Assembly: GCF_900090205.1 (NCBI RefSeq) | Contig: NZ_LT607802.1 | Span: forward strand, 715,846 to 779,845 | Direction of reading: 5' to 3' | Origin: Vogesella sp. LIG4 | GTDB taxonomy: Bacteria > Pseudomonadota > Gammaproteobacteria > Burkholderiales > Chromobacteriaceae | Length of the DNA: 64,000 nt | Shown here: in pieces, positions 278 through 61,694 of the stretch | Layout of the letters: each line of letters starts with the position of its first letter | How positions within the stretch are numbered: position 1 is the first letter of the stretch | Translations under genes and position numbers: made by a program | The notes under the pieces: model-generated | What the model saw: the letters and a program-made list of their open reading frames with translations, nothing else | Told to the model about the DNA's origin: nothing | Databases searched by the model: none

Positions 278-907
278 ATGAACTGGCTTTTCGACCTGGA
301 TGAAACCCTGCACCACGCCGGCCACGCGGTATTTCCGCGCATCAGCCAGCGCATGACCGATTACATCGTGACCTACCTGGGTTATGAGGAAGCGCAGGCC
401 AACCAGCTGCGTACCCATTACTGGCGGCGCTATGGCGCGACGCTGGGCGGGCTGGTGCGCCACCACCGTATCTCTGCCGACCATTTCCTGCGCTTTACCC
501 ATGATATGGATGAGCTGCTGCCGTGGATCCAGCGCGACTCGCGCCTGCCGCAGTTGCTGCGCCGGCTGCCGGGCCGCAAATGGATTTTTTCCAACGGCCC
601 GCAACACTATGTAGAGGCAATCACCGAACACCTTGGCATCGGGCAGCTGATTACCGGCTGCTACGGCATGGAGGCGCTGGACTACCAGCCCAAGCCGCGC
701 CGCAGCGCCTACTACCGGGTATTGCGCGACACAGGGTTGGCCGCAAGCCGCTGCGTGATGGTGGAAGATACGCTGGCCAATCTGCGAACGGCGAAACAGC
801 TGGGCATGCGCACGGTATGGATCAACCGCCGCCTGTGCCACCCCGCCTGGGTGGACTGGCGCATCACCAGCCTGCAACAGCTAGCCGGGCTGACGTTTGA
901 TTGCTGA
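278..907 (+). CDS. HAD-superfamily hydrolase, pyrimidine 5'-nucleotidase-like
   Basis: This 209-residue cytosolic protein has the haloacid dehalogenase motifs in order: DLDET at residues 6-10 (nucleophile D6, acid D8), a Ser motif in FSNG (S105), a Lys in QPKP (K139) and the acidic VED near residues 162-164. Its spacing and the helical cap fit the SDT1/pyrimidine 5'-nucleotidase branch, which removes phosphate from nucleoside monophosphates; the true substrate cannot be read from sequence. The ATG at 278 is the first start giving an intact motif I. It is transcribed away from the rRNA promoter, and its 3' end overlaps the convergent VanZ-like gene by 27 bases. A copy of the GTTGGCCGCA word lies in frame as Leu-Ala-Ala at 736-745. 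Confidence 0.8.
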   Translation: MNWLFDLDETLHHAGHAVFPRISQRMTDYIVTYLGYEEAQANQLRTHYWRRYGATLGGLVRHHRISADHFLRFTHDMDELLPWIQRDSRLPQLLRRLPGRKWIFSNGPQHYVEAITEHLGIGQLITGCYGMEALDYQPKPRRSAYYRVLRDTGLAASRCVMVEDTLANLRTAKQLGMRTVWINRRLCHPAWVDWRITSLQQLAGLTFDC

Positions 908-1975
908 CTGCTGCCAGATGCTGAACAGCAGGCAGGCCAGCGCCAGCAGCGGCCACAGGTCGGCCAGGAAATCGACCAGCGCATTCATATTGTGCAGATG
1001 GCCGTAAGGCCAGCGGAACAGCGACAGGAAATCGGCCTGCACCTGACTGAGCGGCCACAATACCGCCGCGGCCTGTGCTGCGGCCAACGCCAGCAGCGCA
1101 ACCAGGGTTTGCAGCATGCGACCGCTGCGGGCAAACAGCCACGACAGCAGGAAGCCGGCGGCCAGCCCGGTCACCAGGTGCGGGTTCACCCACTGGAAGA
1201 AGGCAAATGGCTTGAGCAGCGCACCGGCGGCAAACAGCTTGAGCAGCCAGGCGGATACCACCACCCACAGGATGGCCTGCCCGCTGTCCCGGCGCTGCAA
1301 CAGGAATGCGGTCAGGAACAGGTTGACCGCCAGCATATTGCTGGCCGCACCGCCGGCCTCCAGCAGAAACAGGAACAGCCGCGGGTTGTCGATGGGCGAC
1401 AGGTAGGGCTGCGGCAACCCCTGCGGGTAGGCCACCACACCGAACAACGGCAGTGCCGGGTTGAGCTGGGTGAAGAACCACAGTCCCATGACCAGCAGGC
1501 CATAGTCGGCGGCGCTATCCGCCACGAAGTGGCGCCGCCGCCATTGCCACAAGTGATGCCAGTAGCGGCGCAGCCAGCTGGAGATGGCCAGCGTCGCCCC
1601 CAGAGCGGCGCCGGACACATTGCACAGCAAGTCGAGATTGGACGCCACGCGGCTGGGCAGAAACTGCTGGGTGAACTCCATGCCAAAGCTGGTCAGCCCG
1701 GCGACGCACACCGCAAACAGCAGCGACAGCCAGCGCGGCAACAGCAGCAACGCCAGGCAGAAGCCATAAGGGATGTAGATCAGTACGTTGGCCGCATTGT
1801 CGAATGACGAGGTGTAAAAAGGCAGAGGGTCAAACAGGAACTCCAGCAGCGGCCGGCCGCTATAACGCCAGCCATGGAACGGGTACAGGCTGAGAAAAAC
1901 AATGATGACCGCGTTGATCAGGGCGGCATACAGCGCCACATGGCTGTTGGAGGCGCGGGCGGGAAAGGCGGTCAT
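881..1975 (-). CDS. VanZ-family integral membrane protein
   Basis: The 364-residue polytopic membrane protein has a VanZ-like N-terminal half: a first membrane helix, then a region with DNAANVLIYIPYGF, a GMEFTQQF helix and NLDLLCNVSGAALG, all typical of that family. The C-terminal half adds several more hydrophobic helices. VanZ relatives lie in the cytoplasmic membrane and some confer low-level teicoplanin resistance, but most, including this one, have no known role. I place the start at the ATG at 1975 because residues upstream in the longer open frame (to 2092) read through a terminator and are not membrane-like. The gene converges on the HAD gene with a 27-base overlap. Confidence 0.75.
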   Translation of the reverse strand: MTAFPARASNSHVALYAALINAVIIVFLSLYPFHGWRYSGRPLLEFLFDPLPFYTSSFDNAANVLIYIPYGFCLALLLLPRWLSLLFAVCVAGLTSFGMEFTQQFLPSRVASNLDLLCNVSGAALGATLAISSWLRRYWHHLWQWRRRHFVADSAADYGLLVMGLWFFTQLNPALPLFGVVAYPQGLPQPYLSPIDNPRLFLFLLEAGGAASNMLAVNLFLTAFLLQRRDSGQAILWVVVSAWLLKLFAAGALLKPFAFFQWVNPHLVTGLAAGFLLSWLFARSGRMLQTLVALLALAAAQAAAVLWPLSQVQADFLSLFRWPYGHLHNMNALVDFLADLWPLLALACLLFSIWQQSAIKRQPG

Positions 1976-2050
1976 CGCCGGAGGGAGTGCAGGGTCATAA
2001 CCCGGCAAGCATACCCAGCCCCCTGTGGCGGCACAAGGCGCTGCGCCAGC

Positions 2051-2080
2051 AAAAAAGGAGCGCCATCGCGCTCCTTTTTT
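2051..2080. terminator. bidirectional intrinsic terminator
   Basis: A perfect 13-base-pair stem (bases 2051-2063 with 2068-2080) closes a four-base loop and is flanked by A6 on one side and T6 on the other. It lies just after the stop of the OmpW gene on the minus strand and before the start of the VanZ-like gene, so it probably ends ompW transcription. Confidence 0.9.
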
Positions 2081-2099
2081 GATTGGTGGCAAGTTCTTA

Positions 2100-4329: not shown

Positions 4330-4390
4330 TCGCTGCAAAAGGGAAGCGCTGTTATCATGCGCGCTTTGATGCAACTTGAAAGCACACACC

Positions 4391-4744: not shown

Positions 4745-4767
4745 GCGCGCGCCAGACCGGCAAGCAG

Positions 4768-12731: not shown

Positions 12732-13424
12732 TTAACGCGTCACGATCTTCAGCAAGGTGGCGAGGATGATCTGCACATCCCCGGCCAGGCTGTAGCCCTG
12801 CGCATAGCGCAGGTAGTAGGCCAGCTTTTCCGGCAGCACCTGTTCGATATAGGCGCGCTCCGGGTCGGCAGCCTTACCCAGTATCTCGTTCTCGTCGATC
12901 ATGCGGATCGACGCCCAGTCGGTAATGCCGGGGCGCACCGACAGCACGATGTCGCGCACATTGTCCGGGTAGCAGGCCACGTACTTGGGCACTTCCGGGC
13001 GCGGGCCCACCAGGCTCATGTCGCCGAACAGCACGTCCAGGAGCTGTGGTAGCTCGTCCAGCTTGCTCTTGCGCAGGATGTGGCCGGCGCGGGTGACGCG
13101 GCTGTCCGCGCCCACCGTCAGCTGGCCGGCGGCCTCGGCATTGATGCGCATGGTGCGGAACTTGTGGATGCGGAACAGCCGGCCGCCGCGCCCTACCCGC
13201 ACCTGGCGGAAGAACACCGGGCCCGGCGAATCCAGCTTCACCCACAGGCCGATCAGCAGCAGCAGCGGCCAGATCAGTGCCAGCCCGGCCAGCACGGCAA
13301 CCAGGTCGAACAGGCGCTTGAGCAAGGGCGAGCCGTGGCGTGCGGCCAACGTTGGCCGCAAGGTATCCAGCTGCCCAGCGCTACTGCGCGACTCGTCTGC
13401 GGCGTAATCCGGCTTGTCGCTCAT
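12732..13424 (-). CDS. initiating sugar-phosphate transferase, PglC/WcaJ-like
   Basis: The 230-residue protein is a monotopic phosphoglycosyl transferase. A single re-entrant membrane helix (LFDLVAVLAGLALIWPLLLL) precedes the cytosolic catalytic core with FFRQVRVGRGG, the FRIHKFRTM segment, KSKLDELPQL with the catalytic Asp-Glu pair, and the signature MSLVGPRPE. It would move a sugar 1-phosphate from a UDP-sugar to undecaprenyl phosphate, starting glycan assembly on the inner membrane. The start ATG at 13,424 overlaps the upstream stop as TGATG, indicating translational coupling. The non-conserved N-terminal stretch LRPTLAA is encoded by a perfect 20-base palindrome of two GTTGGCCGCA words (13,341-13,360). 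Confidence 0.9.
   Translation of the reverse strand: MSDKPDYAADESRSSAGQLDTLRPTLAARHGSPLLKRLFDLVAVLAGLALIWPLLLLIGLWVKLDSPGPVFFRQVRVGRGGRLFRIHKFRTMRINAEAAGQLTVGADSRVTRAGHILRKSKLDELPQLLDVLFGDMSLVGPRPEVPKYVACYPDNVRDIVLSVRPGITDWASIRMIDENEILGKAADPERAYIEQVLPEKLAYYLRYAQGYSLAGDVQIILATLLKIVTR
13341..13360. repeat. perfect inverted pair of GTTGGCCGCA words inside a gene
   Basis: The 20 bases TGCGGCCAACGTTGGCCGCA are a complete palindrome made of one reverse and one forward copy of the 10-base word. The pair lies in the variable N-terminal coding region of the sugar transferase, encoding Leu-Arg-Pro-Thr-Leu-Ala-Ala. Confidence 0.9.
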
Positions 13425-46530: not shown

Positions 46531-46544
46531 TGAATCGGCTGCGA

Positions 46545-46937
46545 TTACTCGGCAGCTTCTTCCACAACTACTTCACCTTCCGCACGATCCACCAGTTCAA
46601 CCAGTGCCATCGGAGCGTTGTCGCCCTGACGGAAACCGTACTTCAGGATGCGAACGTAGCCGCCGTTACGGGCTGCGAAACGCGGGCCCAGAACGTCGAA
46701 CAGTTTCACAACCACTTCACGGTCGCGGGTGCGGTCGAATGCCAGACGGCGGTTTGCCAGGGACGGCTTCTTACCCAGGGTAATCAGCGGCTCGGCAACG
46801 CGGCGCAGTTCTTTGGCCTTCGGCAGAGTAGTCACGATTGCTTCGTGACGCAGCAGCGAGTTAGCCATGTTGCGGAGCATGGCCAGACGGTGGCTGCTGG
46901 TACGATTCAGTTTACGATTGCTATTACGATGACGCAT
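46545..46937 (-). CDS. rplQ: ribosomal protein L17
   Basis: The 130-residue protein begins [17 protein letters not shown], the L17 hallmark. It lines the exit region of the large subunit. It is the last gene of the alpha operon, 22 bases after rpoA. A short acidic tail ([11 protein letters not shown]) ends it. Confidence 0.97.
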
Positions 46938-46959
46938 TGTAGTGTCCTTTTATCCCGGC

Positions 46960-47943
46960 TCAGGGCTTTTCGAGACCAGCCGGCGGCCAGTTTTCGAGTT
47001 TCATGCCCAGGGTCAGGCCTTTCGAAGCGAGAACTTCCTTGATCTCATTCAACGACTTACGACCAAGGTTCGGAGTCTTCAGCAGCTCGGTTTCCGTACG
47101 CTGGATCAGATCACCGATGTAGTAGATGTTCTCGGCCTTCAGACAGTTGGCGGAACGTACCGTAAGTTCGAGATCGTCTACCGGACGCAGCAGGATCGGA
47201 TCGATCGGCGGCGCCTTTTCAACGACTTCCTCAACTGCGGTGCCTTGCAGGTCTGCAAAGATCGACAGCTGATCAACCAGGATGCGGGCAGCCAGACGGA
47301 CTGCTTCTTCCGGTTCGATCACGCCATTGGTCTCGATATCGAGAACCAGACGATCCAGGTCGGTACGCTGCTCTACACGGGCGCTTTCAACATTGAAGCT
47401 GACACGACGCACCGGGGAGAAGGAGGCATCAAGCTGGATGGTACCGATCGAACGGTTGTCGTCATGGTTGATACGAGCCGCTACCGGCTGATAGCCACGG
47501 CCTTTCTCTACCTTGATTTCCATGTCGATCTTGCCACCAGCAGCCAGATGACCGATGACGTGATCAGGGTTGATCACTTCAACGTCATGCGGCAGCTCGA
47601 TGTCACCGGCCAGAACAGCGCCTTCACCATCCTTTTTCAGGGAGAGGATCAGGCTGTCACGACCATGCAGTTTAAGCACTACGCCCTTCAGGTTCAGGAG
47701 GATGTCAACAACATCCTCCCGTACACCGTCAAGAGCGGAATACTCATGCAAAACGCCAGCGATGGTTACTTCGGTCGGGGCGTAGCCCGGCATCGAAGAG
47801 AGCAGAATGCGGCGCAGCGCATTACCCAGGGTATGGGCATAGCCACGCTCAAACGGCTCCATCGACACACGTGCATGTGTAGCCGATACCGGCTGCACAT
47901 CGATCAGACGCGGTTTCAGAAATTCCGAAGCGCTGTTTTGCAT
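46960..47943 (-). CDS. rpoA: RNA polymerase alpha subunit
   Basis: The 327-residue protein has the assembly N-terminal domain ([16 protein letters not shown]) and C-terminal domain ([16 protein letters not shown], with the UP-element-binding Arg and Lys). Two ATGs are close; the one at 47,943 has AAGGA at the right distance. Confidence 0.97.
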
Positions 47944-47966
47944 AGTCATTCCTTAAGAGCTAGCGA

Positions 47967-48590
47967 TTACTTGGAGTAGAATTCCACAACGAGCTGTTCG
48001 TTGATATCGCTAGACAACTCGGAACGCTCCGGAACAGTCTTGAATACGCCTTCCATTTTCTTGGAGTCAACTGCAACCCAAGCCGGGAAGCCGATCTGTT
48101 CCGCCAGAGCCAGACCTTCTTGAATACGAACCTGCTTCTTGGCCTTCTCACGAACAGCAACCACGTCGCCAGATTTAACCTGGTAAGACGGGATGTTCAC
48201 TACAACGCCATTTACAGTGATCGCCTTGTGGCTTACCAGCTGGCGTGCTTCTGCGCGAGTGGAACCGAAACCCATGCGGTAAACAACGTTATCCAGACGG
48301 GATTCCAGGATCTGCAGCAGGTTTTCACCAGTGGAGCCTTGACGGCGAGCAGCTTCAGCAAAGTACTTACGGAACTGACGTTCCATAATGCCGTACATGC
48401 GGCGTACTTTCTGCTTTTCACGCAGTTGAACACCGAAGCCGGACAGGCGGGTGTTCTTCTTAGCGCCATGCTGACCTGGAGCGGTATCCAGTTTGCACTT
48501 GGAGTCCAGTGCACGGCGTGCGCTCTTCAGGAAGAGATCAGTCCCTTCGCGACGAGCCAGTTTACATTTCGGGCCAGTGTAACGTGCCAT
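47967..48590 (-). CDS. rpsD: ribosomal protein S4
   Basis: The 207-residue primary 16S-binding protein begins [16 protein letters not shown] and contains the S4 RNA-binding domain ([15 protein letters not shown]). It lacks the N-terminal zinc cysteine cluster, as in proteobacteria. In E. coli S4 represses the alpha operon; a site cannot be seen here. Confidence 0.97.
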
Positions 48591-48607
48591 TTCTCAGACT
48601 CTCCAGA

Positions 48608-49003
48608 TTAGATACGACGTTTCTTGGGAGGACGGCAACCGTTGTGCGGAACGGGCGTCACGTCGGAGATGCTGGTCACTTTGAAACCCAGTGCATTCAG
48701 CGCACGTACGGAGGATTCGCGGCCAGGGCCCGGACCCTTGATACGTACTTCCAGGTTTTTTACACCGTATTCTTGGGCAACTTTACCAGCGTGCTCTGCT
48801 GCTACTTGAGCGGCAAAGGGTGTACTTTTACGCGAGCCTTTGAAGCCAGCACCGCCGGAGGTAGCCCAAGACAAAGCATTCCCTTGACGATCGGTGATGG
48901 TAATAATGGTGTTATTGAAGGAAGCGTGCACGTGCACGATGCCATCGCTAACAGACTTGCGTACTTTTTTGCGTACACGACCAGCTGTGTTTGCTTTAGC
49001 CAT
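48608..49003 (-). CDS. rpsK: ribosomal protein S11
   Basis: The 131-residue protein has [18 protein letters not shown] and the C-terminal [18 protein letters not shown], both signatures of S11, which forms the 30S platform. It lies 17 bases after rpsM and 17 before rpsD. Confidence 0.97.
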
Positions 49004-49020
49004 TATCTAAGTTCCTTGAA

Positions 49021-49383
49021 TTACTTCTTACCAGCAATCGCCTTACGCGGGCCTTTGCGGGTACGTGCATTGGTACGGGTGCGCTGACCACGGCACGGCA
49101 GACCACGACGATGACGGAAGCCGCGGTAGCAGCCCATATCCATCAGTCGTTTGATGCTCATGGTGATTTCACGGCGCAGATCACCTTCAACGGTGAATTT
49201 AGCCACTTCAACACGCAGAGCTTCCATCTCGGCTTCAGTCAGATCCTTTACCTTGCTTGCCGGGTTGATACCGGTAGCAGCACAGATGTGCTTGGCGCGG
49301 GTCTGGCCAATGCCATAGATTGCCTGCAGGCCGATAACGGCATGCGCATGATTGGGGATGTTTACCCCTGCAATACGGGCCAT
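49021..49383 (-). CDS. rpsM: ribosomal protein S13
   Basis: The 120-residue protein begins [17 protein letters not shown] and has the C-terminal basic tail [17 protein letters not shown] that contacts P-site tRNA. It follows rpmJ by 69 bases, the widest gap in this part of the operon. Confidence 0.97.
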
Positions 49384-49452
49384 TCTCTTTCCTTAAGCGT
49401 TAAGCTTGAAAAGGTTGCGATTCTAGCACAACAAGTGCTCAGCCAACAAATG

Positions 49453-49566
49453 TTAGCCTTGCTTTTGCTTGTGGCGCGGATCAGTGCAGATCACTCGTAC
49501 AACACGGTTGCGACGAATGATTTTGCAGTTACGGCAAATTTTCTTTACCGAAGGTTGTACACGCAT
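49453..49566 (-). CDS. rpmJ: ribosomal protein L36
   Basis: The 37-residue gene was read directly from bases: [20 protein letters not shown] and an end HKQKQG. It has the zinc ligands C11, C14, C27 and H32, so it is the zinc-binding form. It lies between infA (35 bases) and rpsM, the usual betaproteobacterial order. Confidence 0.95.
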
Positions 49567-49601
49567 TTCAGTTCCTTTCTATCTGAAAAGAGCAAGTGCG
49601 A

Positions 49602-49820
49602 TTACTTCGCACGGAACACGATGCGGGCACGGGACAGGTCGTAGGGAGTCATCTCCACAGTAACCTTGTCACCCGGCAGAATGCGAATGTAGTGCATGCG
49701 CATCTTGCCGGAGATATGTCCCAGCACAACGTGTCCATTCTCGAGCTTGACCCGGAACGTTGCATTCGGCAGCGTTTCCAGGACTTCGCCCTGCATCTGG
49801 ATGGTATCTTCTTTCGACAT
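49602..49820 (-). CDS. infA: translation initiation factor IF-1
   Basis: The 72-residue OB-fold protein starts [20 protein letters not shown] and ends [10 protein letters not shown]. An open frame extends 12 residues upstream to 49,856, overlapping secY, but family length and sequence favour ATG 49,820. Confidence 0.96.
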
Positions 49821-49839
49821 TTGCTCAGTTACCGATTGC

Positions 49840-51156
49840 TTAGCGGCTACCGCCACTCTTGAAGTTCGCCTTCTTCAGCAAGCCTTCATACTGGTGGGAC
49901 AGAACATACGACTGCACTTGCGCCATGAAGTCCATGGTCACGACAACCATGATCAGCAGCGAAGTCCCGCCGAAGTAGAACGGTACGTTCCAGTTCAGGA
50001 TCAGGAATTCCGGCAGCAGGCAAACCAGCGTGATGTAGATCGCACCAATCAGCGTGAGTCGAAGAATGATCTTCTCGATGTAACGGGAAGTCTGTTCACC
50101 AGGACGGATACCGGGGATGAATGCCCCGCTTTTCTTCAGGTTGTCTGCAGTCTCTTTGGGGTTGAAAACCAAAGCGGTGTAGAAGTAGCAGAAGAAAATG
50201 ATCGCCGCAGCGTACAGCAACACATAAACCGGTTGGCCAGGATGAAGCTTGTCAGCGACAGACTTCAGGAAACCCAGACCTTCGGTATTGCCAAACCAGC
50301 CCAGCACGGTAGCAGGGAACAGAATGATACTGGATGCAAAAATCGGCGGGATAACACCGGCCATGTTGAGCTTGAGCGGCATGTGCGTGCTCTGGCCCTG
50401 CATGATGCGGTTACCTACCTGACGTTTTGCATAGTTCACCAGAACCTTGCGCTGTCCACGCTCAACGAACACCACGATGTAGGTCACTGCGACAACGGCA
50501 ACGAACAGCAGGATAACCAGCAGAATCGGCAGCGAACCCTGACTGGTCAGGGTCAACGTCTTGCCAATGGCTGCCGGCACACCTGCAGCGATACCACCGC
50601 AGATCAGCAACGAGATGCCATTACCCAGACCACGTTCGGTAATCTGCTCGCCCAGCCACATGAGGAACATGGTGCCGGTAACCAGGCTTACCACGGTCGT
50701 CACGTAGAACTCGAACTGCGGAGCCACAACGAGGTTGGGTTGCTTGAACAGCATCACAGCAATGCCAAAACTCTGGAACGAGGCCAGAGCAAGGGTGGCA
50801 TAGCGGGTGTACTGAGTGATTTTGCGACGGCCAGCATCACCCTCCTTCTTCAACTGCTTCAGAGTCGGAACGATCTCGGAAGCAAGTTGAAGAACGATGG
50901 AGGCAGAGATGTACGGCATGATGCCCAGGGCAAATACCGTAAATCGCTGAAGGGCACCGCCCGAGAACATGTTGAACATGTCGAGCAGGCCGGTTTGTGA
51001 CGACTGGAACAACTTCGCTAGCGCCGCCGGATCAATACCGGGAACCGGAACATGCGCACCAATGCGATAAACAATCAGCGCGCCGAGCAGAAACAAGATA
51101 CGACGCTTGAGGTCGCCGAACTTGTCGCTGTTTCCAACTAGAGAAGTATTCGCCAC
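49840..51156 (-). CDS. secY: preprotein translocase channel SecY
   Basis: The 438-residue inner-membrane protein has ten helices. The plug and pore segment [15 protein letters not shown] and the cytosolic loop [14 protein letters not shown] are as expected. It forms the Sec channel with SecE and SecG and lies between rplO and infA. Confidence 0.97.
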
Positions 51157-51166
51157 GGACTGAGCC

Positions 51167-51601
51167 TTATTCTACGAAGCTACCACCAGCAGCTTCGACA
51201 GCAGCCTTGGCACCAGCAGTGGCAGCAACGCCACGCAGGGTAAAGGCACGGTCTACGCCACCAGACAGGATCAGCTTGGCACCCAGCGATTGCGCCGGAA
51301 CCAGGCCAGCCTGCTTCAGAGTCAGCAGATCCACTTCCACAACCGGCAGCAGAGCCAGTTCGGACAGACGTACTTCAGCCACGGCACCTGCGGTCAGCGA
51401 CTTGAAGCCGCGTTTCGGCAGACGACGCTGCAGCGGCATTTGACCGCCTTCGAAGCCTACTTTGTGGAAACCACCTGCACGGCTCTTCTGACCCTTGTGG
51501 CCGCGACCACAAGTCTTGCCCAGACCGCTGCCAATGCCGCGGCCAACACGGCGCTTGGCATGCTTGGAGCCGGCACCAGGCTTAATGGTATTCAGCAACA
51601 T
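51167..51601 (-). CDS. rplO: ribosomal protein L15
   Basis: The 144-residue protein has the glycine-rich N-terminus [20 protein letters not shown] and [18 protein letters not shown], typical of L15. It is three bases after rpmD. Confidence 0.97.
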
Positions 51602-51604
51602 TTC

Positions 51605-51790
51605 TCAGCCCTCGAATTTAACCAGGTAGCTGATCTTGTTGATCATGCCACGGTTAGCCGGAGTGTCGATTACCTCGACAGTCTGATTCAGCTTCTTCAG
51701 GCCCAGGCCGCGCGCGCAGGCACGGTGGGACTCGATGCGGCCAATCAGGCTCTTAACCAGCGTTACTTTGATGGTCTTGGTATCACTCAT
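51605..51790 (-). CDS. rpmD: ribosomal protein L30
   Basis: The 61-residue protein starts [18 protein letters not shown]. The ATG at 51,790 overlaps the rpsE stop by eight bases, which suggests coupled translation. A longer frame to 51,814 lies inside rpsE and is rejected. It contains an A-variant of the 10-base word (ATTGGCCGCA, 51,736-51,745) that simply encodes the family motif IGRI. Confidence 0.95.
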
Positions 51791-52301
51791 GGTCAGCCCC
51801 CAGGATCTGCTCAACGGTCAGACCACGCTTGGCAGCGATCTGCGACGGAGTGCAGATCTTGCTCAGGCCGTCCAGGGTTGCACGCACCACGTTGTACGGG
51901 TTGGTGGAACCATGGATCTTGGCGGACACGTTGTGTACACCCAGTGCTTCGAAAACAGCGCGCATCGGACCACCGGCTTTAACACCGGCACCTTCCTTAG
52001 CGGGCTGCATGAATACGGTGGTAGCGCCATGGACACCAACCACTGCATGATGCAGCGTGCCGTTTTTCAGCGGAACTTTGAACATGTTGCGGCGAGCCTG
52101 CTCCATACCTTTTTGTACGGCAGCCGGCACTTCCTTGGAACGGCCCTTACCCATGCCGATACCACCATCGCCATCACCAACAACGGTCAGAGCCGAGAAG
52201 GCCATGATGCGACCGCCCTTCACCACTTTGGTGACGCGGTTTACACCGATCATTTTCTCGATCAGACCGTCGCCACGATCTTCGATCTCGTGCTTAGCCA
52301 T
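51783..52301 (-). CDS. rpsE: ribosomal protein S5
   Basis: The 172-residue protein has the S5 RNA-binding domain ([20 protein letters not shown]) and [19 protein letters not shown] end segment (here [13 protein letters not shown]). It helps decoding fidelity in the 30S subunit. Confidence 0.97.
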
Positions 52302-52313
52302 TCTTAACTCCGA

Positions 52314-52667
52314 TTAGAATACAAGACCGTTTTCGCGGGCTGCATCAGCCAGGGCCTTGATACGACCATGGTACTTGAAGCCGGAACGATCAAAGGCAAC
52401 CTGGCTAACACCTGCTGCCTTGGCCTTTTCGGCAATTGCTTTGCCTACGATAGCTGCAGCAGCGGTATTGCCACCATTCGATGCTTGACCGCGCAGACCG
52501 GCTTCCAGGCTGGAAGCGCTAGCCAGAACACGGCTGCCAGTTTCATCGATGACCTGAGCGTAAATGTGGCCATTAGTGCGATGAACGCACAGACGAGCCA
52601 TCTTGAGCTCCGCAATACGAGCACGGGTTTTGCGTGCACGACGGAGTCGAGTCTGTTTCTTGTCCAT
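52314..52667 (-). CDS. rplR: ribosomal protein L18
   Basis: The 117-residue 5S-binding protein begins [18 protein letters not shown] and ends [19 protein letters not shown], as in the family. Spacing to neighbours is 12-13 bases. Confidence 0.97.
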
Positions 52668-52680
52668 TTCAGTGCCTCAA

Positions 52681-53214
52681 TTACTTCTTCTTGGTCTCTT
52701 TCAGAACCACAACCTCGTCCACATAGCGAACGCCCTTGCCTTTGTACGGCTCCGGCGAACGGTAAGCGCGGATTTCAGCTGCGACCTGGCCAACCTGCTG
52801 CTTGTCAGCACCTTTGATCAGGATCTCGGTCTGCGTCGGAGTTTCACACTTCACGCCAGCCGGCATCTTGTGCACGACCGGATGAGAGAAACCAAGCGAA
52901 AGGTTCAGCGCTTCGCCCTGTGCCTGAGCACGGTAGCCTACGCCAACCAGTTGCAGTTTCTTTTCGAAGCCTTTGCTAACGCCAGTCACCATGTTGTTCA
53001 GCAGGGCACGCAGGGTACCGGACATGGAACGGGCGAATTTGCTGTCGTTCTTGGCAGCAAACTGCAGCTGGTTGTCCACCAGCTTGACTTCTACTTCGCT
53101 GGACAGCGCGGTAGTCAGGGTGCCCAGTGCGCCTTTAACGGTCACATCGGAAACGCCAAACTTAACTTCCACGCCAGCGGGGATAACCACGGGGTTTTTA
53201 GCTACGCGAGACAT
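52681..53214 (-). CDS. rplF: ribosomal protein L6
   Basis: The 177-residue protein begins [17 protein letters not shown] and has the C-terminal signature [15 protein letters not shown]. It binds the 23S sarcin-ricin region. Confidence 0.97.
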
Positions 53215-53227
53215 ATCAACCCTCCGA

Positions 53228-53623
53228 TTAAGCCACTACGCACAGCAGCTCACCGCCGATACCGGCAGCACGCGCTTTGCGGTCAGTCATCACACCACGG
53301 GAGGTCGAAACGATAGCCACACCCAGGCCGTTCATTACTTTCGGGATCTCGGTAGAACCCTTGTAAACGCGCAGGCCAGGACGGGATACACGCTCGATAC
53401 GCTCGATAACCGGGCGACCCACGTAGTACTTCAGTTCGACTTCCAGAACCGGCTTCTTGTCTTCGCCAGTTACCGAGAAGCTCTCGATGTAGCCTTCATC
53501 CTTCAGAACCTGAGCGATAGCCACTTTCAGCTTCGACGACGGCATAGCCACGGAAGCTTTGTTGGCGCGCTGGCCGTTACGGATGCGAGTCAGCATATCG
53601 GAGATAGGATCTTGCATGCTCAT
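53228..53623 (-). CDS. rpsH: ribosomal protein S8
   Basis: The 131-residue protein starts [18 protein letters not shown] and ends with the [13 protein letters not shown] segment. AGGAG lies seven bases before ATG 53,623, which favours it over the ATG two codons later. In E. coli S8 represses the spc operon. Confidence 0.97.
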
Positions 53624-53636
53624 TCTGTATCTCCTA

Positions 53637-53942
53637 TTACCAGCTGGCTTTAACTACACCCGGGATCTCGCCTTTCATGGCGATTTCACGGAGTTTGTTA
53701 CGGGCCAGACCGAATTTGCGGAACACGCCACGCGGACGACCGGTCAGGGCGCAACGACGACGCTGACGTACCGGGCTGGCATTGCGCGGCAGTTGCTGCA
53801 GCTTCAGGCGAGCAGCAAAGCGTTCTTCGTCGGACAAATTCGAATTGTTGATGATGGCGAGAAGTTCTTCGCGCTTGGCAGCGTACTTAGCCACGAGCTT
53901 CGCGCGCTTCTCTTCGCGATTGATCAGTGCAAGAGTAGCCAT
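53637..53942 (-). CDS. rpsN: ribosomal protein S14
   Basis: The 101-residue protein is the long, zinc-free form (one lone Cys; no CxxC pairs), with [19 protein letters not shown]. Zinc-independence contrasts with the zinc-binding L36 in the same cluster. Confidence 0.97.
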
Positions 53943-53946
53943 GTGC

Positions 53947-54486
53947 TTAGCCCTTAAACGGGAATTTGAACGCAGCCAGCAGAGCGCGGGCTTCTTCGTC
54001 AGTCTTCGCGGAAGTGGTGATGGTAATGTTCATACCACGCAGAGCATCGATCTTGTCGTACTCGATTTCCGGGAAAATGATCTGTTCTTTAACGCCCATG
54101 TTGTAGTTGCCACGGCCGTCGAAAGACTTGCCAGACACACCACGGAAGTCACGCACACGCGGCAGAGCGATGGTCACCAGGCGATCCAGGAACTCATACA
54201 TACGCTCGCGACGCAGGGTAACTTTGCAGCCAACCGGGTAGTTATCACGAATCTTGAAGCCAGCGATGGACTTGCGGGCAGCGGTCACAACCGGTTTCTG
54301 ACCTGCAATCTTCTCCAGGTCGCCAACGGCGTGTTCCATTACCTTCTTGTCGGCAACAGCTTCACCAACACCCATGTTCAGAGTGATCTTCTCGATGCGC
54401 GGCACTTCCATTACGGACTTGTAGCCGAACTGCTTGATCAGATCAGGAACAACGGTGCTTTTGTAGAAATCATACAAACGTGCCAT
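53947..54486 (-). CDS. rplE: ribosomal protein L5
   Basis: The 179-residue 5S-binding protein has [16 protein letters not shown] and [17 protein letters not shown] at the end, typical of L5. Confidence 0.97.
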
Positions 54487-54495
54487 TTTTGCTCC

Positions 54496-54810
54496 TTACG
54501 CGCCCACGATTTCGCCGGTGGACTTGAAGATGCGCACTTTCTTGCCATCTTCCAGCACCTTGAAGCCAACGCGGTCAGCTTTCTGAGTGGCGGCATTGAA
54601 GATTGCAATATTGGACACGTCCAGCGGCATGGTCTTTTCAACGATGCCACCAGCGATACCACGCACCGGGTTCGGCTTCTGATGCTTCTTGGCGATGTTC
54701 ACGCCTTCAACTACCAGCTTGCCTTCGAGAACACGCAGAACGGTGCCACGCTTGCCTTTATCTTTGCCAGCGATTACGACTACTTCGTCGCCTTTACGAA
54801 TCTTACGCAC
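54496..54810 (-). CDS. rplX: ribosomal protein L24
   Basis: The 104-residue protein starts [20 protein letters not shown], a KOW motif, and initiates 50S assembly. It is 11 bases after rplN. Confidence 0.97.
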
Positions 54811-54821
54811 TGTTCTTCTCC

Positions 54822-55190
54822 TTACAGAACTTCAGGAGCCAGCGACACGATCTTCATGAAGCGCTCGGTACGCAGTTCACGCGTAACAGGCCCGAAGATA
54901 CGAGTGCCGATCGGCTCAAGCTTGTTGTTGAGCAGAACTGCGGCGTTGTTGTCAAACTTGATCAGGGAGCCGTCAGCACGACGAACACCCTTGGCGGTGC
55001 GCACAACTACGGCGTTGTACACATCACCTTTTTTGACACGACCACGCGGTGCTGCATCCTTGATGCTCACCTTGATGATGTCACCCACGCCGGCGTAGCG
55101 ACGCTTGGAGCCGCCCAACACCTTGATGCACATTACGTAACGCGCACCAGTGTTGTCTGCAACATCCAAAATGGACTGCATTTGAATCAT
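54822..55190 (-). CDS. rplN: ribosomal protein L14
   Basis: The 122-residue protein begins [20 protein letters not shown], the L14 signature. It follows a 174-base gap with its own likely promoter, so it may start a separate transcript. Confidence 0.97.
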
Positions 55191-55248
55191 GTGATTACCT
55201 TTCTATCCAACTTAATTCCGCCTCTTTCCTTCCCAAAGATGAAGGAAA

Positions 55249-55325
55249 CGCCGCAAAAAAATTTGCGGCGTGTCTAGCGGCCAGTCTTGGACCCCGTCAG
55301 GGATGATTTCGAGGGAACCCTCGAA
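55249..55325 (-). other. hairpins in the rpsQ-rplN interval
   Basis: Two perfect inverted repeats lie between the promoter at 55,333 and rplN: CGCCGCAAA/TTTGCGGCG around an A/T-rich centre (about 55,250-55,271) and TTTCGAGGG/CCCTCGAAA around 55,308-55,326. They would form in the 5' leader of rplN mRNA. I see no match to a known ribosomal-protein binding site. Confidence 0.6.
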
Positions 55326-55332
55326 AACAACC

Positions 55333-55361
55333 ATTATACAGAGGGGGAGCCCCCTCTGCAA
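55333..55361 (-). promoter_or_regulatory. internal sigma-70 promoter before rplN
   Basis: On the minus strand TTGCAG (55,361-55,356) and a perfect TATAAT (55,338-55,333) are 17 bases apart. The spacer is itself a hairpin of AGAGGGGG/CCCCCTCT, which sits just after the rpsQ stop and may also end or pause the upstream transcript. Confidence 0.65.
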
Positions 55362-55364
55362 GCC

Positions 55365-55628
55365 TTACGCTTGACGAGCCTTCTCGACAAGCGCAGTTAC
55401 TGCCCAAGCCTTGGTTTTGGAAACCGGACGAGTTTCGCTGATGACAACTACGTCACCAACGTTGTACTCGTTGTTTTCGTCATGGGCATGGAACTTCTTG
55501 GAACGACGGATAATTTTACCGTAGATCGGGTGCTTAACCTTGCGCTCGACCAGGACGGTTACGGTCTTATCCATCTTGTCGCTGACAACCTTGCCGGTCA
55601 GCGTACGAGCCATTTTAGTTTCGCTCAT
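55365..55628 (-). CDS. rpsQ: ribosomal protein S17
   Basis: The 87-residue protein has [20 protein letters not shown] and the [16 protein letters not shown] signature of S17. It begins one base after the rpmC stop and ends before a 174-base gap. Confidence 0.97.
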
Positions 55629-55629
55629 C

Positions 55630-55818
55630 TTAAGCAGCCTTCTCTTTCAGAACGGTGCGAACACGCGCGATTTCACGACGCACACGCTTCAGCTCGCTGG
55701 TTTTAGCCAGCTGCTGGGTTGCGTGCTGCATGCGCAGCGCAAATTGAGCCTTCAGCAGACCGAGCAGCTCGGCCTTCAGCTCATCTACGCTCTTGGCTTT
55801 CAGTTCAGTCGCTTTCAT
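55630..55818 (-). CDS. rpmC: ribosomal protein L29
   Basis: The 62-residue helical protein starts [20 protein letters not shown]. Its ATG overlaps the rplP stop as TAATG. Confidence 0.97.
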
Positions 55819-56234
55819 TACTGACCCACCTGTTTAGTCACGAACACCGTCGGAATCGGCAGCTTGGCAGCAGCCAGACGGAAGGCTTCACGAGCAAGCT
55901 CTTCAGCCACGCCATCCATCTCGTACAACATTTTGCCCGGCTGGATTTCGGCCACGTAGAATTCCGGAGAACCCTTACCCCCACCCATACGAACTTCTGC
56001 AGGCTTGGAAGTGATCGGCTTGTCCGGGAATACACGGATCCAAATGCGACCGCCACGCTTGATGTGACGAGTCATTGCACGACGGGCGGCTTCGATCTGA
56101 CGAGCAGTCAGACGACCACGGCCAACGGCCTTGAGGCCGAAATCGCCGAAGCTTACCTTGTTGCCACGAGTAGCCAGACCGGTGTTACGGCCTTTGTGCT
56201 GTTTGCGGTACTTGAGTCTAGTTGGCTGCAGCAT
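55818..56234 (-). CDS. rplP: ribosomal protein L16
   Basis: The 138-residue protein starts [17 protein letters not shown] and has the [16 protein letters not shown] segment. It overlaps the end of rpsC by 17 bases. Confidence 0.97.
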
Positions 56235-56922
56235 TTCGAGCTCCTGCCTTACGCGGTTTCTTCTCAGGTGCTACCGGCGCAGCCTGAACCTGACCAGGCT
56301 TAACGTCACCCTTGTACACCCATACCTTGATACCGATCACACCGTAGGTGGTGTGAGCTTCGGAAGTTGCGTAGTCAACATCTGCACGCAGAGTGTGCAG
56401 CGGTACGCGGCCTTCGCGGTACCACTCGCTACGCGCGATATCGATACCATTCAGACGACCGGAGCTCATGATCTTGATACCTTGGGCGCCCATGCGCATG
56501 GCGTTCTGCATGGAACGCTTCATGGCGCGACGGAACATCACACGCTTCTCCAGCTGGGAAGCGATGCCGTCAGCGATAATCTGGGCGTCAACTTCCGGCT
56601 TGCGGATTTCTTCGATGTTCACGTGAACCGGCACGCCCATGCGAGCTTGCAGTTCTTTCTTCAGAACTTCGATATCCTCACCCTTCTTGCCAATCACCAC
56701 ACCCGGACGGGCGCTGTGAATGGTAATGCGGGCAGATTTAGCCGGACGCTCGATCACCACGCGACCAACGGATGCGTGAGACAGTTTCTTCTTCAGAAAC
56801 TCGCGAACTTCGATATCTTGCTTCAGCTGGCCGGCAAAATCCTGGGAGTTTGCAAACCACTTGGAAGCCCAATTTTTGGTTACTGCCAGACGGAAACCCG
56901 TCGGATGAATCTTCTGACCCAT
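56218..56922 (-). CDS. rpsC: ribosomal protein S3
   Basis: The 234-residue protein starts [18 protein letters not shown], has a type II KH domain around residues 60-110 ([18 protein letters not shown]) and ends in a basic tail. It helps mRNA entry into the 30S subunit. Confidence 0.97.
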
Positions 56923-56932
56923 AGCTTACCCC

Positions 56933-57262
56933 TTAGTTGCCCACGCTCAGCGTGATGTGGCAGGTCTGCTTCTCGATACGGTTACCGCGGCCTTTAGCGC
57001 GAGCGGTAAAGCGCTTGAGGCTCGGGCCCTTGTCCACGTAGATGCTGGTCACTTTCAGCGTATCGATATCCGCGCCTTCGTTGTGCTCAGCGTTGGCGAT
57101 AGCGGACTCCAATACCTTCTTGACGATGGCAGCACCCTTCTTCGGGCTGAAGGTCAGAATGTTCAGTGCCTGACCAACGGACTGACCGCGGATCAGATCT
57201 GCAACCAGGCGGCACTTCTGTGCCGAAAGGCGTGCATTGTTCAGTTGTGCAGAAACTTTCAT
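56933..57262 (-). CDS. rplV: ribosomal protein L22
   Basis: The 109-residue protein has [17 protein letters not shown] and a beta hairpin near [16 protein letters not shown], which reaches the exit tunnel. Confidence 0.97.
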
Positions 57263-57271
57263 CGCATCACC

Positions 57272-57550
57272 TTATTTCTTCTTGGCCTTCTTATCAGCCG
57301 CATGGCCTTTGAAGGTACGAGTCAGCGAAAACTCACCGAGCTTGTGACCAACCATGTTCTCGGACACGTACACCGGTACATGGGTACGGCCATTGTGAAC
57401 AGCGATAGTCAGACCAATGAAGTCCGGCAGAATGGTGGAGCGGCGAGACCAGGTCTTGATCGGGCGCTTGTCGTTTGTTGCACGCACCGCATCCACTTTC
57501 TTCAGCAGGTGGAGATCAACAAACGGGCCTTTTTTAAGCGAACGTGCCAT
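57272..57550 (-). CDS. rpsS: ribosomal protein S19
   Basis: The 92-residue protein begins [18 protein letters not shown] and has the [19 protein letters not shown] signature of S19. Confidence 0.97.
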
Positions 57551-57563
57551 TACTCATTACCCT

Positions 57564-58391
57564 TTATTTGTGAAAGCGACGGCGTACGATCATGTTGTCG
57601 GTACGCTTGTTGCGACGGGTACGGAAGCCCTTAGTCGGGGTACCCCATGGGCTGACAGGCACGCGACCTTCGCCAGTACGGCCTTCACCACCACCGTGCG
57701 GGTGATCCACCGGGTTCATGGCAGTACCACGAACGGTCGGACGGATACCGCGCCAGCGATTGGCACCGGCTTTACCGATCTTGCGCAGGCTGTGTTCTTC
57801 GTTACCTACTTCGCCAACGGTGGCGCGGCAGTCAACGTGTACCTTGCGGATTTCACCAGAGCGCAGACGCAGCTGGGCGTAAACGCCTTCGCGAGCCAGC
57901 AGCATGGCGGAAGAACCAGCGGAACGCGCCAGCTGAGCACCTTTACCCGGCTGCAGTTCGATGCAGTGGATAGTGGTACCAACCGGGATGTTGCGGATCG
58001 GCAGGGCGTTACCAGCCTTGATCGGGGCTTCCGCACCGGACAGCAGCTCGGCGCCAGCCTTCACACCGCGCGGAGCGATGATGTAGCGACGCTCGCCGTC
58101 GGCGTAGCACAGCAGAGCAATGTGAGCGGTACGGTTCGGATCGTATTCGATGCGCTCCACGGTCGCCGGGATAGCATCCTTGTTGCGACGGAAGTCAACG
58201 ATACGATAGTGTTTCTTGTGACCACCACCCATGTGACGGGTAGTGATGTGACCGTTGTTGTTACGGCCAGCGGTAGAGGTTTTCTTCTCTACCAGAGCTG
58301 CGAACGGCGCGCCTTTATGCAGATCCGGGTTTACAACCTTCACTACAGCGCGGCGACCAGCAGATGTCGGCTTAACTTTTACGAGAGCCAT
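57564..58391 (-). CDS. rplB: ribosomal protein L2
   Basis: The 275-residue protein has the catalytically important loop near [18 protein letters not shown], which contacts the peptidyl transferase centre. Length and ends match the family. Confidence 0.97.
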
Positions 58392-58402
58392 GCTCTATCT
58401 CC

Positions 58403-58711
58403 TTACTCCGCAACGGCCGGGGTGGCAGTCAGGTCAAGTTCTTGACCCGGAACCAGGCTTACATAAGCCTTTTTCCAGTCCTTGCGGCGGCCAACGAAAC
58501 GGCCGAAACGCTTGGTCTTGCCCTTAACATTGACAGTGGAAACACCTTCAACTTTTACGTTGAACAGCATTTCAACGGCAGCCTTGATTTCCGGCTTGGT
58601 CGCATCGGTAGCAACACGGAAAGCAACCTGCTGATGCTTTTCAGCGATCATGGTGCTTTTCTCGGATACGATCGGCGCCAGAATTACTTGCAGCAAACGT
58701 TCCTGGTTCAT
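58403..58711 (-). CDS. rplW: ribosomal protein L23
   Basis: The 102-residue protein starts [20 protein letters not shown]. The ATG at 58,711 overlaps the rplD stop as ATGA with GAGGAG eight bases upstream; an ATG two codons earlier is too close to that site. It docks SRP and trigger factor at the exit tunnel. Confidence 0.95.
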
Positions 58712-59328
58712 GCCCATTGCTCCTCGAGTTGCTTCACGGCATCACGGGTGATGATCACCTTATTGAAGCGAACCAGGCTGAACGGATCAGCTTGCTGTGC
58801 CTCAATAACCAGCACGTTCGGCAGGTTACGGGAAGAGAGATAGAGGTTTTCGTCGAGCTCTTTGGTAATGATCAGAGCGCGATCCAGACCCAGCGACTTA
58901 ACCTTGGCCGCAAACTCTTTGGTCTTCGGCGAGGCAACGGTCAGTTCGTCAACCACTACCAGACGCTCGTCGCGAACCAGCTGCGACAGGATGGTAGCCA
59001 TACCGGCGCGGTATTGCTTACGGTTAACTTTCTGGGTGAAGTTTTCGTCCGGCTTGTTCGGGAAGGTGCGACCACCACCACGCCACAGCGGGGAAGAAGT
59101 CATACCAGCACGAGCGCGGCCAGTACCTTTCTGACGGAAAGGCTTTTTGGTCGAATGCTTAACTTCGGCACGAGTCAGCTGTGCACGGTTGGCGCTACGA
59201 GCATTGGCCAGGAAGGCGGTAACCACCTGGTGAACCAGTGCTTCGTTGTAGTCGCGTGCAAACAGTGCTTCGGAAGCCTGCAGGGCTTCAACCTGCTGCC
59301 CTTGAGCATTGATTACTTTCAATTCCAT
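58708..59328 (-). CDS. rplD: ribosomal protein L4
   Basis: The 206-residue protein has the extended loop with [15 protein letters not shown] that lines the tunnel. In E. coli L4 represses the S10 operon. The ATG overlaps the rplC stop as TAATG. Confidence 0.97.
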
Positions 59329-59972
59329 TATGCACCTGCCTTCACGCTAGGACGCACTACCACGTCACCGTTCTTGGCACCCGGCACTGCGCCTTTGACC
59401 AGAATCAGTTGACGTTCCGCATCGATACGAACCACTTCCAGGCACTGAACAGTGCTCTTCACGTTGCCGTATTGACCAGCCATGCGCTTACCCGGGAATA
59501 CACGACCCGGATCTTGCGCCATACCGATGGAACCCGGCGAATTGTGGGAAACGGAGTTACCGTGCGATGCGCGGTTAGACGAGAAGTTGTGGCGCTTGAT
59601 GGCACCCGAGAAACCTTTACCCTTGGAGGTACCGGTTACGTCTACCAGCTGACCAACCTGGAAAACTTCAACGGACAGCTTGTCACCCACGTTCAGGGAT
59701 GCCAGTTGATCGGCGGACAGGACGAACTCGCGCATAGTGCGAGCAGCCTCGATACCAGCCTTGGCAAAATGACCAGCTTCAGCCTTGTTTACACGATTGG
59801 CTTTACGGGAACCAGCTGCAACCTGTACGGCGGTGTAGCCGTCGGTTTCAGCATTTTTAATTTGCGATACGCGGTTAGCGGACATGTCCAGCACAGTTAC
59901 CGGAACGGAAGCACCGTCTTCGGTAAAAATGCGGGTCATGCCGACTTTGCGACCGACCAGACCTAAAGTCAT
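59328..59972 (-). CDS. rplC: ribosomal protein L3
   Basis: The 214-residue protein begins [20 protein letters not shown] and has [20 protein letters not shown], including the Gln that is often methylated. It is separated from rpsJ by 144 bases holding a hairpin. Confidence 0.97.
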
Positions 59973-60011
59973 GTTTATTTCCTTTACAGGCGCCGATTAC
60001 GATTGACCGGC

Positions 60012-60051
60012 TTGCTCAAAAGAAAAGCGGACTCATCAAAATGATGAGTCC
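60012..60051 (-). terminator. attenuator-like hairpin between rpsJ and rplC
   Basis: Nine-base arms GGACTCATC and GATGAGTCC around a five-base loop (60,029-60,051) are followed on the minus strand by GCTTTTCTTTTG, an imperfect T-rich tail. It lies in a 144-base gap inside what is normally one operon. It could partly terminate str-operon transcription after rpsJ. No clear promoter for rplC is visible after it. Confidence 0.55.
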
Positions 60052-60116
60052 GCGACTGTATCACAGAAAATTCAATGCATGCAAGCACTTAGCCTGCACA
60101 CATCGATTATCCGCAA

Positions 60117-60428
60117 TTACTGCAGCTTGATTTCCACATCCACGCCAGCCGGCAGGTCCAGCTTCATCAGCGCGTCAACGGTCTTGTCGGTAGGATCGAC
60201 AATGTCCATCAGGCGCAGGTGAGTACGGATTTCCAGCTGATCACGGGAAGTTTTGTTCACGTGCGGGGAACGCAGCACGTTGAAACGCTCGATCTTGGTC
60301 GGCAGCGGAACCGGGCCTTTAACTACGGCGCCGGTACGCTTGGCGGTTTCAACGATTTCCTGAGCGGAACGGTCGATCAGGTTGTAATCGAACGCTTTCA
60401 GGCGGATACGGATTTTCTGGCTAGACAT
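60117..60428 (-). CDS. rpsJ: ribosomal protein S10 / NusE
   Basis: The 103-residue protein begins [20 protein letters not shown] and ends [12 protein letters not shown]. Besides its 30S role it binds boxA with NusB in antitermination, linking it to the rRNA boxA at the left edge. It is 14 bases after tuf, joining the str operon. Confidence 0.97.
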
Positions 60429-60442
60429 AAATTTTCCGATCC

Positions 60443-61633
60443 TTAAGCGATGATCTTGGCAACCACACCGGCGCCAACAGTACGGCCACCTTCGCGGATC
60501 GCGAAACGCAGACCATCTTCCATAGCGATCGGAGCGATCAGTTCTACGGTGATTTCCACGTTGTCACCCGGCATTACCATTTCCACGCCTTCGGCCAGCG
60601 TAATTGCGCCGGTCACGTCGGTAGTACGGAAGTAGAACTGCGGGCGGTAGTTCGCGAAGAACGGGGTGTGACGACCGCCTTCATCCTTGCTCAGTACGTA
60701 TACCGAAGCCTGGAACTTGGTGTGCGGGGTGATGGAACCCGGCTTGGCCAGAACCTGACCACGCTCTACATCTTCACGCTTGGTACCACGCAGCAGCACG
60801 CCTACGTTGTCGCCAGCCTGACCCTGGTCCAGCAGCTTGCGGAACATTTCCACGCCGGTGCAGGTGGTCTTAACGGTGGCCTTCAGACCAACGATTTCCA
60901 GTTCTTCACCAACTTTAACGATACCGCGCTCTACACGACCGGTAACCACGGTGCCGCGGCCGGAGATGGAGAATACGTCTTCGATCGGCAGCAGGAACGG
61001 CTTGTCGATGGCACGCTCCGGAGTCGGGATGTAGGAATCCAGTGCGTCAGCCAGACGGAAGATGGCCGGCTCGCCGTATTCGGACTGATCGCCTTCCAGC
61101 GCCAGACGAGCGGAACCGATCACGATCGGGGTATCGTCGCCCGGGAAGTCGTAGGAAGACAGCAGATCGCGCACTTCCATTTCCACCAGTTCCAGCAGCT
61201 CAGCGTCGTCCACCAGGTCGGCCTTGTTCAGGAACACGATGATGTACGGAACGCCAACCTGACGGGACAGCAGGATGTGTTCGCGGGTTTGCGGCATCGG
61301 ACCGTCAGCGGCCGAGCACACCAGGATAGCGCCGTCCATCTGGGCAGCACCGGTAATCATGTTCTTAACGTAGTCGGCGTGACCCGGGCAGTCTACGTGA
61401 GCGTAGTGGCGAGCCTCGGTTTCGTATTCTACGTGCGCGGTGTTAATGGTAATACCGCGGGCTTTTTCTTCCGGCGCGCTGTCGATCTGGGAGTAGTCTT
61501 TAGCTTCGCCACCGAACTTCTTGGACAGAATGGTGGTGATAGCAGCGGTCAGAGTGGTTTTACCATGGTCAACGTGACCGATGGTGCCGACGTTTACGTG
61601 CGGTTTATTCCGCTCAAACTTTTCTTTTGCCAT
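60443..61633 (-). CDS. tuf: elongation factor Tu
   Basis: The 396-residue GTPase has GHVDHGKT (G1), [11 protein letters not shown] (G3) and NKADLVD (G4). It delivers aminoacyl-tRNA. Only this copy is in the window; a second copy elsewhere is common in this group. Confidence 0.97.
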
Positions 61634-61670
61634 TTTGCAAAAATCCTTAATTAAAGAACAAACAGTGTGA

Positions 61671-61694
61671 AGGTTGGCCGCATGCGGCCAACCT
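61671..61694. repeat. inverted pair of GTTGGCCGCA words between fusA and tuf
   Basis: Forward copy 61,673-61,682 abuts reverse copy 61,683-61,692 to form a perfect palindrome extended by AG/CT on each side. It starts 12 bases past the fusA stop. There is no T run, so it is not a classical terminator. Confidence 0.9.

Follow-up and report, generated by a model that had tools for sequence, protein, structure and literature searches.

The dispersed word GTTGGCCGCA of Vogesella as a probable DNA uptake sequence with a divergent ComP, and related words in other Chromobacteriaceae

Eight dialects of the DNA uptake sequence (DUS) have been described in the Neisseriaceae, all with one core, CTG, which is reported to be common to them and essential (PMC3630211). 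In the receptor ComP of N. subflava the double-disulfide (DD) region and the beta1-beta2 loop touch the DNA first, and a small part of the alpha1-beta1 loop is involved (PMC4906244); the disulfides of the DD region in N. meningitidis ComP are C76-C125 and C118-C139. The abstract of a 2025 modelling paper states that the ComP-DNA structure is unresolved (PMC12061091). According to Frye et al. (2013) the DUS originated after the split from Chromobacterium violaceum, in which BLAST gave no ComP, and five genomes (Laribacter, Lutiella, Pseudogulbenkiania and two Chromobacterium; no Vogesella) showed 'no obvious DUS', their over-represented 10-mers being listed in Table S1D. The subject of the present work is the 10-base word GTTGGCCGCA, noticed in a stretch of 64,000 nucleotides from Vogesella sp. 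LIG4 (Chromobacteriaceae; NZ_LT607802.1, positions 715,846 to 779,845; referred to as the window). With a probability of roughly 0.9 we consider this word, with a loose AAG in front, to be the DUS of Vogesella, read by a divergent ComP. Apart from the negative result of Frye et al. (2013), the listed titles and abstract beginnings from searches of open-licence PMC papers, a collection outside of which subscription papers and most preprints stand, contain no uptake sequence of Chromobacteriaceae, in agreement with a first-pass annotation of the window, which knew of none.

The single-contig genome of 4,147,242 bp carries 1,458 forward and 1,437 reverse copies of GTTGGCCGCA, 2,895 in total, versus 4 + 4 = 8 copies of the reversed word, so that the count is not near background; it also lies above the limit of at least about 1,000 copies on both strands that is typical of such systems. 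In a 400-kb sample of the genome GTTGGCCGCA was the top 10-mer with 257 occurrences against 3.0 expected. The consensus is AAG-GTTGGCCGCA-(A/T)-G, with A, A and G before the word in 56, 52 and 51% of the copies and A/T and G behind it in 60 and 58%. The longer consensus suggested by the first-pass annotation was partly recovered in this form, its flanking A, A, G and G being kept in only about 51-58%. Beyond about 4 bp the flank information is small, apart from a weak codon periodicity, and the copies are therefore not those of one mobile repeat with long shared flanks, an origin which the annotation had named, as it had a background-level count, among the outcomes that would refute its proposal. 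Within 464 kb, 108 one-mismatch forms were found versus 298 exact copies; positions 3 to 6 were nearly invariant and position 10 was the most variable.

As the annotation had claimed from the window, copies occur in genes and in spacers on both strands, and close pairs are inverted. Over half of the copies are genic (167 of 298 in the 464 kb; 136 of 241 in those 16 of the 20 sampled stretches where the gene calls were reliable) and occupy all six phases, unevenly. Intergenic copies amounted to 104 of 241 versus 33 expected, i.e., 2.38 versus 0.49 per kb; L037, L039, L041, L044 and the window were left out of these density figures, and the gene caller is rough and fails in low-GC stretches (coding 0.76 across all 21 stretches). 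All 29 close pairs (gap of at most 40 bp) in the 464 kb are inverted, none has the same orientation, and 28 of them are intergenic by the same rough gene calls. Such pairs could be taken for what is left of terminators or of a REP or MITE-like mobile repeat. The short flank information and the genic majority in all six phases speak against both origins, which we regard as hardly credible, and only 4 of the 29 pairs have TTTT no more than 16 nt away, on one side or the other (4% at random spots). The link to terminators drawn in the annotation thus holds weakly, the pairs are not generally intrinsic terminators, and termination as the main role of the word was ruled out. Signals for recombination or segregation (Chi-like, KOPS-like), which also have thousands of short dispersed copies, or sites of an architectural protein are very improbable as well: no polarity was seen between the contig halves, compared without a located replication origin, the strand totals are near-equal, close pairs are always inverted and, as described below, the word differs between genera, is absent from others of the family and follows the loop residues of a pilin.

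GTTGGCCGCA is restricted to Vogesella, and the comparison with related genera that had been proposed along with the uptake hypothesis revealed related words elsewhere in the family. All 13 Vogesella genomes harbor 1,871-2,895 copies (the 12 besides LIG4 1,871-2,442), and the loci examined in V. indigofera DSM 3303 and V. oryzae hold 11 and 9 copies in about 21 kb. By comparison, 8-58 copies were counted in 48 Chromobacteriaceae genomes of nine other genera and 0-52 in 59 further genomes of the order. De novo counting in samples of the nine other genera (numbered g2 to g10) yielded GTTGGCCGAA, the AA word, in g2, g3, g5 and g10 and GTTGGCCGAG, the AG word, in g4, and no word of comparable strength in the sampled genomes of g6, g7 (Chromobacterium), g8 and g9. 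If g2 is Pseudogulbenkiania, which is a guess of ours, the AA word may stand unrecognised in Table S1D of Frye et al. (2013).

Whole-genome counts in the 61 genomes of the family assigned GTTGGCCGAA to eight genomes of five genera and GTTGGCCGAG to two Crenobacter genomes; in all, 23 of the 61 bear a word. Outside the family no count above 47 was seen in 399 genomes of the order, drawn from a larger group. Chromobacterium, Paludibacterium, g9 and nine of ten Aquitalea are near background (examples by our labels are G026, G027 and G038 for the three named genera), which for Chromobacterium confirms the 'no obvious DUS' of Frye et al. (2013). Lineage dialects are thus present, with the endings CA, AA and AG in different genera. 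Three genomes remain below 1,000 copies of the related words, namely G022 with 893, G023 with 579 and G029, 84% complete, with 183. The sequence GGCC within the word might point to a restriction site maintained by a methylase or to a HIP1-like motif associated with methylation, and no search for methylases was made; as the word is 10 bp long, non-palindromic, variable at its 3' end by genus and strongly enriched between genes, we judge this explanation extremely improbable.

Several single genomes deserve mention beside this distribution. Aquitalea G017 has 1,368 copies of GTTGGCCGAA and its nine congeners 11-36, a within-genus difference that offers a close pair for studying system loss (loci L133, L282). 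G023 (g3, Crenobacter sp. SG2303), a Crenobacter by name, falls in a GTDB genus other than that of C. cavernae (G024) and C. luteus (G015) and carries two words, 579 copies of GTTGGCCGAA and 165 of GTTGGCCGAG; possibly its dialect is in transition. The Paludibacterium genomes G027 and G036 contain 92 and 85 copies of GTTGGCCGAG versus 21-55 in four congeners, which is possibly the relic of a lost dialect; one Chromobacterium reaches 67. In a sample of G021 (g10; L100-L105) the palindrome TGCTTAAGCA is over-represented, with a both-strand count of 18 versus 0.13 expected (9 sites in 120 kb).

The best candidate for the receptor is a minor pilin adjoining aroB-aroK-pilQ in Vogesella; in G013 its gene follows the GspH-pilW-pilX-pilY1 genes. 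A sequence search of the PDB gave only 2m3k, 5hz7 and 2nba below E 0.1, and the three solved neisserial ComP structures are the top matches by sequence as well as by fold search. The candidate is accordingly closer in sequence to neisserial ComP than to other pilins and has a predicted ComP pilin fold. In the tree the neisserial and the Chromobacteriaceae ComP clades are neighbours (join 89/41, next wider fork 97/84). Database labels of its relatives read PilE, type IV pilin protein or hypothetical protein, and the ComP proteins of G005 and G010 are identical, in the compared part, to those of V. indigofera DSM 3303 and V. oryzae.

It is unlikely that another minor pilin, either FimT/GspH-type or a further PF16732 pilin, reads the word instead. 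The genome encodes two further PF16732 pilins (L001, L002), FimT-like neighbours were seen by eye beside all three, the gene directly before comP matches Pfam GspH, and DNA recognition mediated by FimT (PMC8897410) and by ComN, of the PpdA/ComN type (PMC12616744), is described elsewhere. Of the three, however, only the aroB-linked pilin has neisserial ComP as its best match in sequence and fold; those at L001 and L002, compared by sequence only, match PilE, geopilin and PilA chains. Moreover, the aroB-linked orthologues track word status, the pilin at which the cross-genome profiling was directed.

This co-distribution is close. When the 61 genomes were searched with the pilin, ranks 1-22 were taken by 22 of the 23 word-bearing genomes, the last one, G021, ranking just behind the word-free G032; the ComP of Aquitalea G017 scored 62 bits versus at most 49 in the other Aquitalea. 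No clear orthologue was found in G039 and four g9 genomes, and the latter have no word either. In Chromobacterium 16 of 19 genomes, including G018 (Neisseriaceae bacterium TC5R-5), belong to the orthologue clade; two more have orthologues that were dropped by a length filter and G039 has none. With orthologues this frequent, the BLAST miss of ComP by Frye et al. (2013) is explained by sequence divergence. Within 53 orthologues residue 63 is K or R in 22 of the 23 from word-bearing genomes and in none of the 30 from word-free ones; N95 together with D97 was counted in 22 of the former and 5 of the latter. The word-free orthologues of G058, G049 and G019, lost to the length filter before tree and residue counts, by eye likewise have no K/R at residue 63. 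At residue 100 all 13 Vogesella have Y, and the ten genomes with the AA or AG word have E (K in G017). The structural model places residues 95-99 between strands 85-89 and 102-107, in our reading the beta1-beta2 loop; residue 63 falls in the loop that precedes beta1.

ComEC, ComEA and PilQ genes, as found in naturally competent Gram-negative bacteria, are present in LIG4 besides the ComP-type pilin; a lack of competence genes, together with a methylase whose site is the word, was the third refuting outcome named by the first-pass annotation. ComEC was detected in 59 of the 61 family genomes and ComEA in all 61 (59 over cut-off); being nearly universal, this machinery was discarded as a discriminator of word status.

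A number of observations weigh against a ComP-read uptake sequence. Among word-bearing genomes, G017 has no K/R63, though N-T-D-A-G is kept, and G021 has no N-x-D pair, though R63 is present. Fisher tests of residue against word ignore descent, residue 63 was picked after scanning, and the word-free orthologues form about three clades; effective numbers are consequently small and the association rests on about three independent losses. Support for joining the neisserial with the Chromobacteriaceae ComP clade is weak, and the tree program warned of few columns and long branches. The candidate has no DD region, its conserved cysteines numbering just two, both close to the C terminus, and all three Chromobacteriaceae words read CCG instead of CTG at +6 to +8. 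Pfam ComP_DUS (PF16732), tried as a receptor marker, matches every one of the 61 family genomes, 60 of them over cut-off, and its best match in LIG4 is a different pilin, that at L001, without a PDB ComP match at E 0.01; the label therefore proves nothing. No ComEC match was obtained in G001 and G008, both word-bearing Vogesella drafts (330 contigs; 88% complete). By titles and abstract beginnings, the open-licence papers naming both Vogesella and natural competence are not about its competence, and a genetics study of V. indigofera, examined by a search for terms, used conjugation and makes no mention of natural transformation (PMC12826045).

In the window 41 exact copies (23 forward, 18 reverse) were found by pattern matching; 100 dinucleotide shuffles averaged 0.60 copies and never exceeded 3, in line with the low chance expectation stated earlier. 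All 39 copies of the original list are exact, and those at 1787 (forward) and 3477 (reverse) had been omitted. The features are:

736..745, forward strand: first forward copy of GTTGGCCGCA, exact pattern match
1787, 4877, 5416, 8512, 11088, 11495, 13351, 15772, 17049, 19914, 24298, forward strand: starts of the other forward copies, first half, exact match
24869, 26533, 26679, 28612, 29926, 35499, 38876, 40335, 41887, 43952, 61673, forward strand: starts of the other forward copies, second half, exact match
1079..1088, reverse strand: first reverse copy of GTTGGCCGCA, exact pattern match
3477, 5780, 7478, 9811, 13341, 14642, 17835, 29231, 30493, 31518, 35082, 35813, 36915, 37691, 41359, 46417, 61683, reverse strand: starts of the other reverse copies, exact match
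13341..13360: abutting inverted pair TGCGGCCAAC/GTTGGCCGCA, a perfect palindrome of 20 bp, placed outside genes by the rough gene caller
61673..61692: abutting inverted pair GTTGGCCGCA/TGCGGCCAAC in the spacer that separates the EF-Tu gene from that of EF-G
46427..61672: word-free stretch of 15.2 kb, GC about 0.53-0.58 in 2-kb steps
47967-48590: ribosomal protein S4 gene, inside the word-free stretch
59328-59972: ribosomal protein L3 gene, inside the word-free stretch
60443-61633: EF-Tu gene, inside the word-free stretch
61706-63805: EF-G gene, just past the word-free stretch

A genomic island as the cause of the 15-kb gap was ruled out by its ribosomal-protein and EF-Tu genes. Elsewhere in the genome, L037 (622,087-642,086), L039 (1,036,811-1,056,810) and L041 (1,451,535-1,471,534) contain 0, 2 and 3 copies per 20 kb at a GC of 0.52-0.55, and the remaining 17 stretches of 20 kb hold 11-19. 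On the basis of low GC and few words these three are probably acquired islands.

The initial proposal of an undescribed uptake sequence is supported by count, strand balance, dispersal and inverted pairs as well as by genus restriction, related words and a co-distributed ComP orthologue; function in uptake is what we infer from them. ComP, displayed on type IV pili as a minor pilin, would bind duplex DNA that bears the word with higher affinity, pilus retraction would draw the bound DNA through PilQ, ComEA and ComEC would pass one strand into the cytoplasm, and homologous recombination would install it. These bacteria would be transformable, with uptake biased towards their own word. Because word-bearing fragments would be taken up preferentially, copies arising by point mutation could spread until the genome is filled, except for genes under strong constraint and stretches acquired recently. 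Related genera would use GTTGGCCGAA or GTTGGCCGAG in the same role.

As a yardstick, GCCGTCTGAA was counted 1,863-4,285 times in 8 of 11 genomes of the family f44, which we take to be the Neisseriaceae because of its words and ComP proteins, and 2-12 times in 12 Chromobacteriaceae genomes; the three other f44 genomes have 247, 4 and 2 copies, and muc or king words stand in the loci of two of them. The 12-mer AGGTTGGCCGAA agrees with simDUS AGGCTGCCTGAA and mucDUS AGGTCGTCTGAA at 9 of 12 ungapped positions, a value equalled in 0.4% of draws by random 12-mers compared, without shifts, with seven dialects. Its AG prefix was chosen, position -1 having no clear preference in G014 and G in only 41% in G021; the 10-mer alone reaches 7 of 10 with neisserial dialects (chance about 3%). 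The A/C change at +9 also divides kingDUS from king3DUS (PMC3630211). This likeness hints at common descent of the words without being proof of it; if descent was common, the post-split origin of Frye et al. (2013) needs revision. In the f44 loci L145/L156, L147/L155, L152/L164 and L162 a tandem pilin gene is sister of comP (96/83), which suggests a duplication after the split from the Chromobacteriaceae. At L161, in the f44 genome G224 whose loci bear king words, the candidate ComP shows no more than two cysteines at its C-terminal end, and the DD region may therefore not define all neisserial ComPs.

A more comprehensive scenario, for and against which we see the chances as evenly balanced, is that the DUS-ComP system predates the split of Neisseriaceae and Chromobacteriaceae. 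GCCGTCTGAA, GCTGCCTGAA, GTTGGCCGAA and GTTGGCCGCA would then derive from one ancestral word with an exchange of the core between C-T-G and C-C-G, and the losses of the word in Chromobacterium, in Paludibacterium and in most Aquitalea would each have gone along with decay of N-x-D-x-G in the beta1-beta2 loop of ComP. That loop and Lys63 would be the ancestral reader and the DD region a later neisserial addition. The origin of uptake-sequence-guided sex may thereby move back before the branching of Chromobacterium. A family thought to lack uptake tags now displays a set of related, very probable ones. With its three words, a core unlike the neisserial one and several losses, this second family is a natural experiment on the joint change of word and receptor, in which residues 63, 95-99 and 100 are changeable, assayable candidate positions for word reading. 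Foreign DNA in these genomes may be recognised by its shortage of the word, and genetic methods work in the environmental bacterium V. indigofera (PMC12826045).

Compared with the known systems, the candidate ComP belongs to the same broad pilin class as the PilE-type minor pilins (P. aeruginosa PilE, 4noa). The uptake signal sequences of Pasteurellaceae (types AAGTGCGGT and ACAAGCGGT; PMC3630211) are likewise dispersed short words with dialects and presumed uptake tags, but the word is unrelated and the receptor proposed for them, PpdA/ComN, is another type of pilin (PMC12616744). Closest is the neisserial DUS/ComP system (AT-DUS, AG-DUS and dialects), with which the words described here share a length of 10-12 bp, about a thousand to several thousand copies, strand balance, inverted pairs, lineage dialects and a ComP-type minor pilin. 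Unlike it, they occur in another family, and comP stands beside aroB-pilQ (Vogesella) or behind GspH-pilW-pilX-pilY1 (G013). With a CCG core and a ComP of two C-terminal cysteines, the Vogesella system strictly falls outside the neisserial DUS on two Neisseriaceae features, the CTG core and the DD region, whereas its likeness to them in working is well supported.

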